From contig JAFGJS010000046.1 of NCBI GenBank assembly GCA_016928995.1, positions 1 to 37,768 on the forward strand: DNA of 37,768 nt. The letters run 5' to 3'. Each line of letters starts with the position of its first letter. Position 1 is the first letter of the stretch. Source of the stretch: Candidatus Sumerlaeota bacterium (GTDB taxonomy: Bacteria; Sumerlaeota; Sumerlaeia; JAFGJS01). The notes below the pieces were generated by a model that saw only the letters and a program-made list of their open reading frames with translations, was not told the origin of the DNA and did no database searches. Made by a program: the position numbers and the translations under genes. Shown piece by piece: positions 10,290 through 25,243 of this stretch.

Positions 10290-10907
10290 ATGAGCATAGC
10301 ATTGGCCTATCATAATAAGGACGCATACGAGGATCTGAAGACGCTGGACGTCGTACGGTGCGTCCAGAACGGCGATCATGAATTGTTTGAAATTCTGGTG
10401 CGCCGGTATCAGGACCGGGTTTACAACACGGCCCTGCGGTTGATCGGCAATGCGGACGATGCGGCGGACATCACTCAGGAGGTGTTTCTGAATTGCTTCC
10501 GGAAAATCGACCTGTTTCGCGGTGATTCGGAGTTTCTCACCTGGCTTTACCGCATCACGGTCAATATGGTCAAAAATCGTTGGACCTATCGTGAGCGCCG
10601 TGGATATGGCAAAACGTATTCGCTGTTTGACGTTGAACACGAAGACGACCGGCCGTTGGAGGCGAAATTGAAAAGCACCTCTCCGGGACCGCACGACTTG
10701 GCGCGCGACCGTGAATTGAAGGACATTTTAATGGAGAAAATGGGGGAAATCGATCCGGATTATCGTGAAGTGCTGGTGTTGCGCTGTGTGGAGCAGTTGT
10801 CGTATGAAGAGATCGCGGACGTTCTGAACACATCGATTGGGACAGTCAAGTCTCGTATTCATCGAGCGCGGGAATTGATCCGGAGGAAAATGGAAAAATA
10901 TATTTGA
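10290..10907 (+). CDS. ECF-type RNA polymerase sigma factor (RpoE-like)
   Basis: 205 aa from the ATG at 10290; an alternative TTG at 10248 would add 14 residues. Region 2 is YQDRVYNTALRLIGNADDAA, then ITQEVFLNCF and FLTWLYRITVNM. Region 4 is YREVLVLRCVEQLSYEEIA, then VLNTSIGTVKSRIHRARELI, a helix-turn-helix. No region 3 is present, as in group 4 sigma factors. The linker is acidic (EHEDDRPLE). It is followed after 62 bp by a membrane protein with anti-sigma features and then a glycosyltransferase. A GGAACC-N16-GTCAAA element just upstream suggests autoregulation. An envelope-stress role is inferred from context. Confidence 0.92.
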   Translation: MSIALAYHNKDAYEDLKTLDVVRCVQNGDHELFEILVRRYQDRVYNTALRLIGNADDAADITQEVFLNCFRKIDLFRGDSEFLTWLYRITVNMVKNRWTYRERRGYGKTYSLFDVEHEDDRPLEAKLKSTSPGPHDLARDRELKDILMEKMGEIDPDYREVLVLRCVEQLSYEEIADVLNTSIGTVKSRIHRARELIRRKMEKYI

Positions 10908-10969
10908 TTGTACGCCGGCATATGCCGCGCCGAAATCACCGGAGGCAGGGAAAGTGAGTTGATTGGAGT

Positions 10970-12076
10970 ATGTTACACGAAAATAATCAAGATATCGATG
11001 AGCTATTGCTCTCGCTTCCGCGCGAAAAAGCGCCGGAAGATATGCCTGATCGCGTGATGAGCGCGATCAGGCAGGAACTGGCGGGAGAAACCGCGGATAT
11101 CGTTCCTGCCGCGGAGGTGAAACCAACGCCGGTCGAACCGCGCTGCATCAGCGGCCGGCCGCTGCATTATCTTGAGGCGGCGGCGGTGTTTCTATTTGTG
11201 GGTCTCAGCGCGGCCATTCTGCATGATGCGATTCTTCAAGAAAATGGCGGCAGCTCGACCATGGCCGTTCCTCGCCCCACGCTGGCCTCGCATCATTCCG
11301 ATAAACCAGCGGCTGCCGCAGCGACAAAAGACACCCAGCAGTTCGATTTGCATTACGGCAGCGCGTTGATCAGCCGTCTGTTCCATGGCTTCGGCCAGGA
11401 GCAACGCAACCAGAATCCGTCAGTGATCATGCCAGTGCCAGTGCATCACGATGCGAGCGTATCGACAGCTGGTATCGACAGAAGCCGATCAATCCCTCAG
11501 GTTTCCAACTCGAACCTCACAGTTTTAGCTTACCCCTTGGAGGAATCCTCCGACGTGGCGCTGGATGGCGCTGTGCTGCAAAGGGGAACCGGCAAAGATC
11601 AACCGGATCCTAGGTTCGGCGTGATTTGGGGCTGGATCGACGAGGTTGTGCGCGTCCAATGCGGCGGATGGATCGCCTCATGGGAATTGCACCAGAGCGC
11701 CGATGCCGCTAAAATGCCGCTGTTTAAGGTGAATTGCATCGTCCCGAAGGAAAACGAGGCGTCCTTCAAGGCATACTTTAACCGGCAGGGATATCTTATT
11801 TTCAACCAGCAAAATGCGAGAACCGGTGAGCAGTCCACCTCGAAACTGCAGCTGCTGGATCCGCATGGCGCGGCGATATTAACCGCGACGAATTTCAATA
11901 CACAGGTGAAGAATCGCCGGCTGGTTAAATCGCTTCACGAATTGGAAGAACTCGGCGAAAGCGGTAAAATATCAGGCAACGCGGAAAAAGAATACATTCT
12001 TTACGAGATAGTCTGCCAACCGGTGGACTTGCAGTTGAACGTAAAGGCCTTAACGGGCAATAATCTTGTTTTCTAA
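10970..12076 (+). CDS. putative membrane anti-sigma factor, no zinc-binding motif
   Basis: 368 aa, not matched to a named family. The N-terminal cytoplasmic part (1-60) has IDELLLSLPREKAPEDMPDRVMSAI, the LPR..AP..L..RVM pattern frequent in anti-sigma proteins. One transmembrane helix follows at about 63-85 (YLEAAAVFLFVGLSAAILHD). The rest would be periplasmic: a low-complexity linker to about residue 210, then a compact domain (about 215-368; WGWIDEVVRVQCGGWIASWE to the C-terminus). The HxxxCxxC zinc anti-sigma motif is absent. GGAG at 10965-10968 is close to the start, with GGAGG further up at 10941. The stop overlaps the glycosyltransferase start (TAATG). The partner role is inferred from position and topology. 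Confidence 0.6.
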   Translation: MLHENNQDIDELLLSLPREKAPEDMPDRVMSAIRQELAGETADIVPAAEVKPTPVEPRCISGRPLHYLEAAAVFLFVGLSAAILHDAILQENGGSSTMAVPRPTLASHHSDKPAAAAATKDTQQFDLHYGSALISRLFHGFGQEQRNQNPSVIMPVPVHHDASVSTAGIDRSRSIPQVSNSNLTVLAYPLEESSDVALDGAVLQRGTGKDQPDPRFGVIWGWIDEVVRVQCGGWIASWELHQSADAAKMPLFKVNCIVPKENEASFKAYFNRQGYLIFNQQNARTGEQSTSKLQLLDPHGAAILTATNFNTQVKNRRLVKSLHELEELGESGKISGNAEKEYILYEIVCQPVDLQLNVKALTGNNLVF

Positions 12077-13269
12077 TGACACCTGAAGCGCAACCGCATA
12101 TTGCTCTCCTGGTCAAGGCCCTCCCCTGCCATCAAGCCGGCGGTTTGGAATTCCATGCGCTGGAACTCGCCCATGGACTGATCCGAATCGGATTCCGAAC
12201 GACAATTTTGACATCCGCCCTTCCGGATCAACCGGCCATCGAGATGGGTGATGCGCCGCTGGAGATTCTCTACGCGGAAGACGGAGCGCCGGGGCGCTAT
12301 TCACGGACCTATTTTCGCGAGACGAACCGGCTGTTGGCGGAACTGCATCAGCGCGATCCGCTCGATCTGATCCATGCGCAGGAGTTTTCCGCGATGTACC
12401 TGCAGCGGCCTGCGCCGGATTTGCCGTTGATTTCCACGATTCATGGCACTTTGTATTCGGAGACTCCCCTCTCGCCGGTCATCTTTCAACGCGGCGCCTG
12501 GTGGCGGCGTTTGCTCTGGCTATGGCAATTCAAACATCGCATCATGCTGCGCGGACGCTACCGGCGTTTATTACAGGAAAGCGATTCGATCATTGTGGAC
12601 AGTGAATTTACGCGCAATGAGTTAATGCTGGAGAACGTGCCGGAACAGAAAATGCATGTGGCTCCCCTGGGCGTTCCACATAGTATCTCGTCCCTCCCCT
12701 CTGCGCATGCCTGTCAAAGCCGCACTAAGTTGGATCGGCCGTATGTGCTGACCGTATCCCGCCTGACCTGGATCAAGGGCGTGGATCTTGGCATTGAGGC
12801 GATGGCGAAGAGCCGTTCGCGCGTGGATTACGTGATCATCGGCGATGGTCCGGAAAAATCGCGATTGGAACGTCTAGCGAAGCGCTATCCAGACTTCCGC
12901 GTGCATTTTCGCTCGAACGTGCCGGTTGCGGATTTGCCGTATTACTATGCCGGTGCGAGGCTGGCGCTGATGCCGGAGCGCAACCAGCCGGCGTTCGGGT
13001 TGACCGCGCTGGAGGCGAACCTAATGGGGACGCCGGTGCTGGCAGCGCGGACGGGCGCCTTGCCGGAAGTGCTGGGTGAGCACGGCGGTTGGTTCTTCGA
13101 TCGCGGCAACGTGCAGCAATGCGCCGGGACGCTGCTGGGGTTGCTGGCGAATCCCAAGGCGTTGCGCGATCAGGGCGTGAAAGCCCGCGAGTCGGCGCTT
13201 CGGCGCTTCTCGGTGGATCAAATGGCGCGAAACACGGCCGAAGCCTATAAAAAACTGCTCAAAAAATAA
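12076..13269 (+). CDS. glycosyltransferase family 4 (GT-B fold)
   Basis: 397 aa. The N-terminal acceptor domain contains GGLEFHALELAHGLIRIGF, and HAQEFSAMYL with ISTIHGT follow. The C-terminal nucleotide-sugar domain has VLTVSRLTWIKGVDLGIEAM, then IIGDGPEKSRLERLA, and the retaining-GT signature around ERNQPAFGLTALEANLMGTP (E-x7-E). It likely transfers a hexose in envelope polysaccharide, LPS or glycolipid synthesis. Its start overlaps the anti-sigma stop (TAATG), so it is under the ECF operon promoter. Donor and acceptor are unknown. Confidence 0.9.
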   Translation: MTPEAQPHIALLVKALPCHQAGGLEFHALELAHGLIRIGFRTTILTSALPDQPAIEMGDAPLEILYAEDGAPGRYSRTYFRETNRLLAELHQRDPLDLIHAQEFSAMYLQRPAPDLPLISTIHGTLYSETPLSPVIFQRGAWWRRLLWLWQFKHRIMLRGRYRRLLQESDSIIVDSEFTRNELMLENVPEQKMHVAPLGVPHSISSLPSAHACQSRTKLDRPYVLTVSRLTWIKGVDLGIEAMAKSRSRVDYVIIGDGPEKSRLERLAKRYPDFRVHFRSNVPVADLPYYYAGARLALMPERNQPAFGLTALEANLMGTPVLAARTGALPEVLGEHGGWFFDRGNVQQCAGTLLGLLANPKALRDQGVKARESALRRFSVDQMARNTAEAYKKLLKK

Positions 13270-13375: not shown

Positions 13376-13564
13376 ATGGCGAAATGTTATCTTTCCGGCA
13401 AAGGCCCGATGATCGGCAACAACGTGAGTCACGCGAATAATCGTACTCGTCGGCGCTTTAAACCAAACCTGCAGCGTATCCGTATCAAGGATGAAAACGG
13501 GCGGGTGCGTCGTGTGTGGGTGCAGGCCAAGTACATCAAGGCTGGCAAGATCGTCAAGCCGTGA
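13376..13564 (+). CDS. rpmB: 50S ribosomal protein L28
   Basis: 62 aa. Begins [20 protein letters not shown] followed by [17 protein letters not shown], the diagnostic L28 signature ([17 protein letters not shown]). It is a basic, short-form L28 with a single Cys near the N-terminus, so it is not the four-cysteine zinc form. It has its own possible promoter upstream and a strong terminator just downstream, suggesting a monocistronic unit. Confidence 0.95.
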
Positions 13565-13593
13565 CGGCTGAAGGCCTTCGCAAATAGTTTAAG

Positions 13594-13686: not shown

Positions 13687-14736
13687 CTACTTCGCCACCG
13701 CACCAGCGGCCTTTAATAATTGAACTATACATTCATGGCCCCGTAGTGTGGCAATTGAAAGAGGTGTGTCGCCTTCATCATCAACGGCATTAACGTTCGC
13801 GCCATTTTCGATTAATAGTTTTATCACGTCGGTATGACCTTCATGAGCAGCAATGATCAGCGGCGTGAGACCATACTTCATGACGGCATTCACATTTGCC
13901 TTGGCATCGATCAAGACCATAATCACATCGGTATGATCCTCGATAGCGGCAGCACAAAGTGGCGTGACGCCAAGGTTTGTCGCACCATCTACGTTCGCTT
14001 GGGCGGCGATTAACAATTTGACTATGTCGACACGGCCGTCTTGCGCTGCCATATACAGCGGTGTCGTGCCATCATTCATGACAGTATTGATCTTCGCCTG
14101 AGCTGCGATTAGTTGCTTAACCACGTCAACATGGCCTTGTTGGACGGCTTTATGCAGCGGCGTGGCGCCATCCTTATCTGCGGAATTGACGTTCGCTTTG
14201 GCTGCAACCAACAATTCAACCACGTCGGCATGGCCATCTTGCGCGGCCATATACAACGCTGTAGAGCCATCATTCCTGACGGCATTCACATCTGCTTGAG
14301 CGGCTATCAGCAATTTAACCACGTCGGCATGTCCCTCTTGGGCGGCGATGAAGAGCGGTGTGGCGCCATCGCCCCAAACGACATTGACATTCGCTTGAGC
14401 GCTGATCAGTAATCTGACCACATCATCATAGCCGTTTTGGACGGCGACATATAGAGGCGTAATACCAAGGTTTGTTACGGTGTTAACATTCGCTTGGGCT
14501 GCGATCAGCTGTTTGACTATGTCGGCATGGCCTTTATATGCAGCCACGAATAGTGGTGTGCGACCAACGTCATCTACAGCGTTGATATCCGCACCGGACG
14601 CCAGCAGCAAGCGGACTTCCGCCGCATTATCGTTCATGCAAGCATCCAGCAAGCGGCTGTCAATGGATGTGTCTTCGGCGCCGGCGACATTTATAGCGCA
14701 CACCAGCATTAAGAACATCCTGCAAAACCTTTTCAC
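13687..14736 (-). CDS. secreted ankyrin-repeat protein
   Basis: 349 aa. Starts at GTG 14736 with an AAAGGAGA ribosome-binding site at 14741-14748. A Sec signal peptide (MKRFCRMFLMLVCAINVAGA, cleavage before ED) leads straight into about ten 33-residue ankyrin repeats filling the protein; nine carry the G-x-T-[PA]-L core (GRTPLFVAAYKGHADIVKQL and variants). No other domain is present, so it is a pure protein-binding solenoid in the periplasm or outside the cell. The partner is unknown. The repeats are similar at DNA level (99-bp period). It stands alone between the rpmB terminator and the Pat-like gene. Confidence 0.88.
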   Translation of the reverse strand: MKRFCRMFLMLVCAINVAGAEDTSIDSRLLDACMNDNAAEVRLLLASGADINAVDDVGRTPLFVAAYKGHADIVKQLIAAQANVNTVTNLGITPLYVAVQNGYDDVVRLLISAQANVNVVWGDGATPLFIAAQEGHADVVKLLIAAQADVNAVRNDGSTALYMAAQDGHADVVELLVAAKANVNSADKDGATPLHKAVQQGHVDVVKQLIAAQAKINTVMNDGTTPLYMAAQDGRVDIVKLLIAAQANVDGATNLGVTPLCAAAIEDHTDVIMVLIDAKANVNAVMKYGLTPLIIAAHEGHTDVIKLLIENGANVNAVDDEGDTPLSIATLRGHECIVQLLKAAGAVAK

Positions 14737-23923: not shown

Positions 23924-25243
23924 ATGGAGCAATTTGAAAAGCTTGATCGCGCACGCCGTATTGTTCTTCCTCTGTTGCTGCTGAGCGTGCTGATCGCGGC
24001 GGGGTTATGGAACTGCCGCGAGCCTAAGCCGCCGGAAAAGAAGCCGGTTTGGCGCAATCCAACCGCCCACGTGGAAAAAGGAACGATCCGTGTTGTGATT
24101 GAAGCCAACGGCAGCATCAAACCCGCGGCTTCCGTCAAGGTTAAATCGCGCGTCGCCGGAGCGGTGGAAAAAGTGCACGCGGAATTGGCCGAAGAGGTCA
24201 GGAAGGGCGAACTCCTGATCGCGCTCGATTCGCACGACGCCTCCCGTGAAATGCGCCTGATGCAGGCGCGGGTGAATTTTGAAAAGGCGCGGCTGGCTCA
24301 AACCGAAGAGAAAGTGCGATACGAGGAGAAGAAAGCGGAGACGCAATTAGCCGAGGCCGAAGCGCGCGTCAACTCGCTGGAATCGCAGTTCAGCGCGGCT
24401 CAACAGGCGATGCAGGAAAAGCAGGCGCAGTTTGACCAAAAGCAAATCGAGCAGGCTGAACTCGATGTCGCCGCAAAGACTCTCGCCGACGCCGGAAAAG
24501 AGTTGGAGCGTTCGCGCAACCTGCTGCGCGAACGGAAAGAATCCAATTATGATCTGGAGCTGGCGCGCAAAGAGCGCGACCTGGCCGCCGCCCGGCTCGA
24601 GGAGCAGAACCTGCTCCTCGAAGCGGCTGAGGCGCGGCTTTCGGACACGCAGATCGTCGCGCCGATCGACGGCGTGATCACGGAAAAGCACATCGAAGCC
24701 GGACAGGTCGTGGCTTCGGGCATGTCCGCCGTCGAAGGCCCCCCGCTGCTGGAAATCAGCGATCTCTCGCGCCTTTATGTGGATGCGCTGGTGGATGAAA
24801 TGCAAGTGGGCTATCTCAGCGAAAATCTTTCGGCGAAAATAACACTCACGGCCTGGCCCGACCGCGAGTTTCTCGGCCGGATCGTGCGCATTTCACCGGA
24901 CGCCGTGAAGACTGACGAAAACGGCGTGCATTTCGCGGTTCGCATCGAGATCGACGTTGAAACGAAATCGGAACTGCGGCCGGGCATGACCGCTTCAGTC
25001 AAAATCGTCGCGATTGAAAAAAGCGGCGTGCTCCGCCTGCCCGAGGACGCATTAGTGAAAAACGCTCCGCAACCCGCCGTGCAAAAACTGAGCGGACTGA
25101 ATCAGCGCATCAACGCGCCGGTGAAACTGGGCATCTTCGACGGCGAATATTACGAAGTTCTGGAAGGCCTGGAGGAAGGCGACGAGGTCGTATTGCAGAC
25201 GCCCGTGCAGGTCCGCGAGGAATCGCCGCAACAGGCGAATTAA
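23924..25243 (+). CDS. HlyD/MacA-type periplasmic adaptor (membrane fusion protein)
   Basis: 439 aa from ATG 23924 with GGGAGAAG at 23913-23920. One N-terminal membrane anchor (about 12-30, IVLPLLLLSVLIAAGLWNC). Then lipoyl-like half (VEANGSIKPAASVKVKSRVA with GELLIALDSHDA), a long heptad coiled coil (about 105-235, Ala/Glu/Gln-rich), second lipoyl half (DTQIVAPIDGVITEKHIEAG), beta-barrel (ALVDEMQVGYLSENL) and membrane-proximal domain (LRPGMTASVKI). Adaptors bridge an inner-membrane pump and an outer-membrane channel. No pump or TolC gene lies next to it. Preceded by fxsA. Confidence 0.88.
   Translation: MEQFEKLDRARRIVLPLLLLSVLIAAGLWNCREPKPPEKKPVWRNPTAHVEKGTIRVVIEANGSIKPAASVKVKSRVAGAVEKVHAELAEEVRKGELLIALDSHDASREMRLMQARVNFEKARLAQTEEKVRYEEKKAETQLAEAEARVNSLESQFSAAQQAMQEKQAQFDQKQIEQAELDVAAKTLADAGKELERSRNLLRERKESNYDLELARKERDLAAARLEEQNLLLEAAEARLSDTQIVAPIDGVITEKHIEAGQVVASGMSAVEGPPLLEISDLSRLYVDALVDEMQVGYLSENLSAKITLTAWPDREFLGRIVRISPDAVKTDENGVHFAVRIEIDVETKSELRPGMTASVKIVAIEKSGVLRLPEDALVKNAPQPAVQKLSGLNQRINAPVKLGIFDGEYYEVLEGLEEGDEVVLQTPVQVREESPQQAN

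Follow-up and report, generated by a model that had tools for sequence, protein, structure and literature searches.

A sigma factor operon of Candidatus Sumerlaeota with a putative class I anti-sigma factor that retains only part of its anti-sigma domain

The window, a stretch of 37,768 nucleotides from a Candidatus Sumerlaeota contig, carries three consecutive genes for an ECF sigma factor, a membrane protein (P0002) and a glycosyltransferase (P0003), which raises the question of whether these genes represent a new envelope-stress system, as the original prediction proposed, or an operon of a kind already known (Table 1). We found a real and conserved ECF sigma/anti-sigma operon, but it belongs to a known kind, and the claim of novelty exceeds the evidence; what is unusual is the eroded domain of the anti-sigma factor. 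We consider it likely that the three genes form an autoregulated operon of the SigW-RsiW or RpoE-RseA kind to which a glycosyltransferase has been coupled, and we infer the control of glycan synthesis from gene order. For a little-studied lineage this is a first candidate for an envelope-stress operon, and a predicted promoter comes with it. A limited literature search met no description of a shortened anti-sigma variant of this type and found nothing that combined Sumerlaeota with sigma factors.

Table 1. Features of the operon and its surroundings, numbered by position in the window
Feature	Position	Strand	Basis or remark
Predicted ECF (RpoE-type) promoter, GGAAC-N17-GTCAAA	10253-10280	+	motif upstream of sigma orthologues
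ECF sigma factor, RpoE-like	10290-10907	+	ATG at 10290; 205 aa; Pfam regions 2 and 4
Putative membrane anti-sigma factor P0002	10970-12076	+	ATG at 10970; 368 aa; anti-sigma profile of the class
Putative class I anti-sigma domain remnant, limited to helix 3/4, residues 6-37	10985-11080	+	alignment; low-confidence model
Membrane helix, residues 65-92	11162-11245	+	hydropathy peak at 65-83; helix at 65-92 in low-confidence model
Possible DUF4349-like module, residues 229-281	11654-11812	+	hhalign to 12 segments from the class; tentative
GT4-type glycosyltransferase P0003	12076-13269	+	397 aa; two GT4-type Pfam domains
Short ORF directly after the glycosyltransferase gene	13377-13565		presumably ribosomal protein bL28-like
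Gene with signal-like N-terminus and many ankyrin-like repeats (presumed)	13687-14736	-	

The coordinates, order and strand of the three genes agree with those first given, and the P0002 stop codon (TAA) and the glycosyltransferase ATG overlap by a single base. The prediction of an operon also holds, in that the order of sigma factor, anti-sigma factor and glycosyltransferase is present in nine other genomes of the same taxonomic class, which is more than chance. Our class set comprised 39 genomes, including the one studied here (G000), and 32 of them have a sigma match at E <= 1e-30. In a tree of 40 sigma sequences, 31 sequences from the class form one group (support 97/95); the sigma factor of G005 lies outside this group, among the 8 outgroup sequences, and G005 was therefore excluded from the counts of 31. 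An anti-sigma gene directly follows the sigma gene in 25 of the 28 loci that are readable at this position (contig ends left the second gene uncounted in G011, G015 and G030); at the remaining three, the script selected another reading frame for the second gene. A glycosyltransferase similar to P0003 comes next in 10 of the 25 loci readable to the third gene (G000, G002, G003, G007, G012, G021, G023, G026, G028 and G035), contig ends having left this gene uncounted in G011, G014, G015, G016, G029 and G030. The glycosyltransferase is thus a frequent companion of the pair and not an obligatory part. Among 80 sigma loci of other lineages, which were kept from a sigma-alignment scan and of which 79 have a second gene, none has a P0003-like protein as second or third gene at E 1e-3, so that the trio looks particular to the class, where it is probably an old arrangement that has been lost in places.

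The sigma factor has regions 2 and 4 only (Sigma70_r2, 5.9e-16 at residues 36-103; Sigma70_r4_2, 9.6e-18 at residues 146-195), within the length of about 200 aa that characterizes ECF factors. It scores 103.5 bits against TIGR02937, for which the cut-off is 42.9, and its best PDB sequence match is E. coli sigma-E (1or7; 3.9e-33). The predicted promoter ends 9 bases before the sigma ATG, so its transcript would be almost leaderless. When the 330 bases upstream of each matched sigma core were searched, GGAAC-N17/18-GTC occurred upstream of 15 of the 32 sigma genes, all of them within the orthologous group of 31, and the motif in this form is missing from the other 16 upstream regions of that group. 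Over 500 dinucleotide shuffles, the same upstream regions gave 0.41 matches on average and never more than 3, and reversed and wrongly spaced control patterns gave none. The motif resembles the -35 box of E. coli RpoE, GGAACTT, and the relevant part of the same source describes ECF sigma factors as typically recognising AAC and CGT boxes and as autoregulated (PMC8103513). Its recurrence in 15 of 31 orthologous upstream regions makes autoregulation of the sigma factor likely.

The second gene was predicted to encode a protein with an anti-sigma-like N-terminus, and this identity is supported by homology to anti-sigma factors at the same position, but only the second half of the class I (RsiW-like) domain is present. 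P0002 gave no match at E <= 1 either in Pfam or in a PDB sequence search, and in NCBIfam it matched a single model, for a putative anti-sigmaE, with an E of 0.051. A profile of 22 full-length anti-sigma factors of the taxonomic class (G005 included; L071_G027 dropped beforehand for its wrong reading frame) matched P0002 at E 6e-8 with 28.8 bits, where the best of 1000 shuffled N-termini reached 9.3 bits. Four short anti-sigma factors were matched by this profile at E 9e-12 to 6e-8, P0002 being the weakest. A second profile, built from 15 N-termini of which 3 are short, matched solved RsiW (6.9e-11), ChrR (1.2e-4) and RsrA (1.8e-4), as well as the 3hug membrane protein (3.9e-6), which we take to be RslA. 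The alignment of the class profile with RsiW covers positions 4-77, and the aligned stretch ends in APADFTANVMAKLPKE in RsiW and in APEDMPDRVMSAIRQE in P0002.

P0002 adjoins its cognate ECF sigma gene and has its membrane helix after the domain, as class I proteins do. The prediction of one membrane helix was confirmed by a single hydrophobic helix, and that of a zinc-free protein by the absence of zinc ligands: there is no Hx3Cx2C site, and the sole Cys or His residues among the first 62 are H3 and C59. Only the helix-3/4 part of the four-helix N-terminal domain (ASD/ZAS) aligns, and a low-confidence model has two helices there, at residues 6-14 and 25-37. The part of the literature on class I anti-sigma factors on which we draw places helix 1 on sigma region 4 and helix 4 on region 2 (PMC7406223); it describes the helix-1 contact as conserved, and this contact is missing in P0002. 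Judged by homology, P0002 is a class I (RsiW-type) anti-sigma factor that has lost its first ~40 residues, with helices 1 and 2 and the zinc site, and keeps the helix-3/4 part; it derives from the class I family and is not a complete member of it. A pattern search of the genome contigs for relatives of P0002 gave 56 matches, none of which was confirmed.

The 25 anti-sigma factors at this position in the class fall into three kinds: 8 have the Hx3Cx2C site (G003, G004, G012, G013, G019, G023, G026 and G031), 13 are of full length without it (G001, G006, G007, G008, G010, G014, G017, G021, G022, G028, G032, G035 and G037), and 4 are cut to the last part of the domain (G000, G002, G009 and G016). 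The same N-terminal loss thus occurs in two further families of the class, and all four short proteins retain the helix-4 part. Short forms lie on three branches of the sigma tree, namely G000, G002 (grouped with G011, whose anti-sigma gene is off the contig) and G009/G016, and the sister of the last, G008, keeps a full-length domain (support 88/92). This distribution suggests that the loss probably happened at least twice, on a tree whose backbone is poorly supported. Three genomes of one family (G004, G019 and G031; loci L060, L061 and L065) have anti-sigma factors of about 200 aa that keep the zinc site, are without the large outer domain and have no similar glycosyltransferase next to them.

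The outer part of P0002 was originally described as an unfamiliar periplasmic domain. It does lack a match to any Pfam family or PDB sequence, but it may be a diverged module common to related anti-sigma factors. Foldseek searches with low-confidence single-sequence models of the whole protein (mean pLDDT 43.5) and of residues 213-368 (61.6) found no PDB fold at E <= 0.001; the structure search of residues 213-368, together with Pfam and the PDB sequences, gave no enzyme match, in keeping with the view that this part is not a known enzyme. Several anti-sigma factors of the class have a common short pattern, consisting of GG.I, a strand that ends in P, a helix containing F and L, and G. Twelve segments selected by eye from 26 proteins, P0002 excluded, matched the start of the DUF4349 alignment (probability 91.4, P 9e-7), and P0002 aligned to them in hhalign with a score of 24.4 that none of 300 shuffles equalled, in a test biased in favour because the segments were picked by eye. 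When each segment was left out in turn, 4 of the 12 reached P < 1e-3. A HMMER test of P0002 for the module was negative, a direct comparison of P0002 with DUF4349 gave no match (shuffles scored higher), and P0002 does not pass the curated cut-off of PF14257. Across the class, PF14257 gave two sub-threshold matches (profile positions 9-71), on the gene after the sigma gene in G002 and G029, and three outgroup anti-sigma factors have weak DUF4349 matches (4e-4, 9e-5 and 0.007). Tentatively, the outer part of P0002 may be a diverged, fast-evolving copy of a DUF4349-like module of related anti-sigma factors.

The glycosyltransferase has both GT4-type domains above their Pfam cut-offs, Glyco_transf_4 (PF13439) with 6.4e-20 at residues 22-202 and Glycos_transf_1 (PF00534) with 1.4e-25 at residues 216-372. 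In seven of the nine relatives with a linked glycosyltransferase, the best match to P0003 at E <= 1e-40 is the one in the sigma operon; the linked enzymes of G028 and G035 fall below this threshold. The spacing between anti-sigma and glycosyltransferase genes in the other genomes ranges from overlaps of 1 to 8 bp to short gaps.

In the model that we favor, the helix-3/4 remnant of P0002 would hold the sigma factor at the membrane at rest, chiefly by masking region 2 in the way that helix 4 of class I proteins does, and with no helix 1 to contact region 4. A signal would act on the outer part, and the cleavage or change of shape that follows would free the sigma factor. One gene of the genome encodes a peptidase M50 (site-2 protease family), matched over nearly its full length. 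Once free, the sigma factor would turn on its own operon. This would yield more sigma factor, more anti-sigma factor as feedback, and the glycosyltransferase; the enzyme would contribute to the response by modifying a surface glycan.

This model depends on P0002 being short in reality and still able to bind. It is very improbable that a full domain exists and only looks short through an artefact of the assembly or of the chosen start: the genome is a draft of 161 contigs, but just 62 bases separate the sigma stop from the P0002 ATG, and extending the open frame beyond this ATG gains no more than 4 codons (372 aa), which leaves P0002 without a hidden N-terminus. The same shortening is seen in G002, G009 and G016, and in G009 the anti-sigma gene starts within the end of the sigma gene and has no room for more. 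Given a truly shortened protein, P0002 might no longer be an anti-sigma factor, the sigma factor being unrestrained or controlled by amount only and P0002 kept for another job, such as anchoring or regulating the glycosyltransferase. The loss of the part that contacts region 4 (as that contact is described in PMC7406223) and the divergence of the periplasmic part past recognition by Pfam would fit this alternative, yet we regard it as unlikely, since the helix-4 part, to which the consulted part of that source assigns most of the predicted class I sigma contacts, is the part that all four short proteins have kept, and very short anti-sigma domains function elsewhere. CnrY has two helices (PMC7406223 and PMC4598750, as excerpted), and the domain comprises residues 1-39 in the TolB-type protein of Thermoanaerobacter tengcongensis (PMC3397946, as excerpted).

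A working pair with the glycosyltransferase as a passenger, co-transcribed by gene order and without a role in the response, has more in its favor, and we hold it to be possible, if doubtful. Of the 25 readable loci, 15 have no such enzyme beside the pair, and in G013 it is found on the same contig at a distance of several kb. Against this, six families of the class show the linkage, the genes almost always overlapping or lying close together, and in two genomes more glycan genes follow, a GT87 and a heptosyltransferase family 9 gene further downstream in G026 and further glycan genes downstream in G023.

The operon with a coupled glycosyltransferase can be placed beside several characterized systems. 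SigW-RsiW of B. subtilis and RpoE-RseA of E. coli likewise consist of an ECF sigma gene followed by the gene for a single-pass membrane anti-sigma factor; the present operon differs in that P0002 has neither helices 1-2 nor the zinc site, in an outer part that bears no relation to known sensors, and in the coupled glycosyltransferase. CnrY of Cupriavidus metallidurans, which belongs to class II, also has a very short two-helix domain before its membrane helix. As described in the parts of the two CnrY sources used here, class II proteins place helix one on region 4 and helix two on region 2, and CnrY keeps the first of these contacts, whereas P0002, with two helices in a low-confidence model, is a class I descendant that keeps helix 3/4; the likeness is one of description. 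The anti-sigma factor of T. tengcongensis RpoE1, whose sigma factor is autoregulated, combines a sigma-binding domain of 39 residues with a single membrane helix and a large outer part, but that outer part is a TolB-like domain, and the portion of the report used here notes no glycosyltransferase (PMC3397946). Anti-sigma factors of the zf-HC2 type in Geobacter (L134) and Syntrophomonas (L153 and L155) occupy the same position after a related sigma factor, and their outer parts resemble the start of DUF4349; they keep the zinc finger and have no glycosyltransferase next to them, whereas P0002 has no direct DUF4349 match.

A more far-reaching reading, which we offer as speculation, is that trimming of the class I domain took place repeatedly, in separate branches, and left a helix-3/4 stub that is tethered to the membrane and restrains the sigma factor via region 2 alone. 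Besides sandwich and wrap, this would add another mode of inhibition, one that arose as the sandwich decayed, and the operon concerned would drive an enzyme of surface glycans. Should the stub remain inhibitory, P0002 and its relatives would form a natural deletion series beside orthologous sigma factors, from zinc-binding through zinc-free full-length to half domains, and the series would show which part of the class I domain inhibition requires and whether it can do without the region-4 contact.

Beyond the operon, a genome-wide scan found 24 matches to the promoter pattern and 37 to its reversed control; there is no enrichment, and most matches are thus due to chance. Two are well placed, one before the gene for an NfeD1b-type membrane protease (L223; intergenic, G000:C137, about 23934-23962) and one before a lipoprotein-like gene (L227). 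Neither serves as evidence for a regulon: no clear site occurs in any of the nine relatives in which nfeD is matched (loose matches number two in L235 and one in L237), and a comparison with the other 38 genomes of the class gave no relative of the lipoprotein-like gene at E 1e-10. The scan of this genome and its relatives for the pattern confirmed no regulon members. In G002 and G011, the apparent reading frame of the sigma gene includes the motif, so the sigma starts may be misjudged there. At four other loci (L084, L086, L088 and L089, in G028, G035, G015 and G032, respectively), the -10 part of the motif falls inside the ATGTC of the apparent sigma start, so that a transcript from the motif would miss this start; these genomes may have a second promoter or make a shorter form of the sigma factor.
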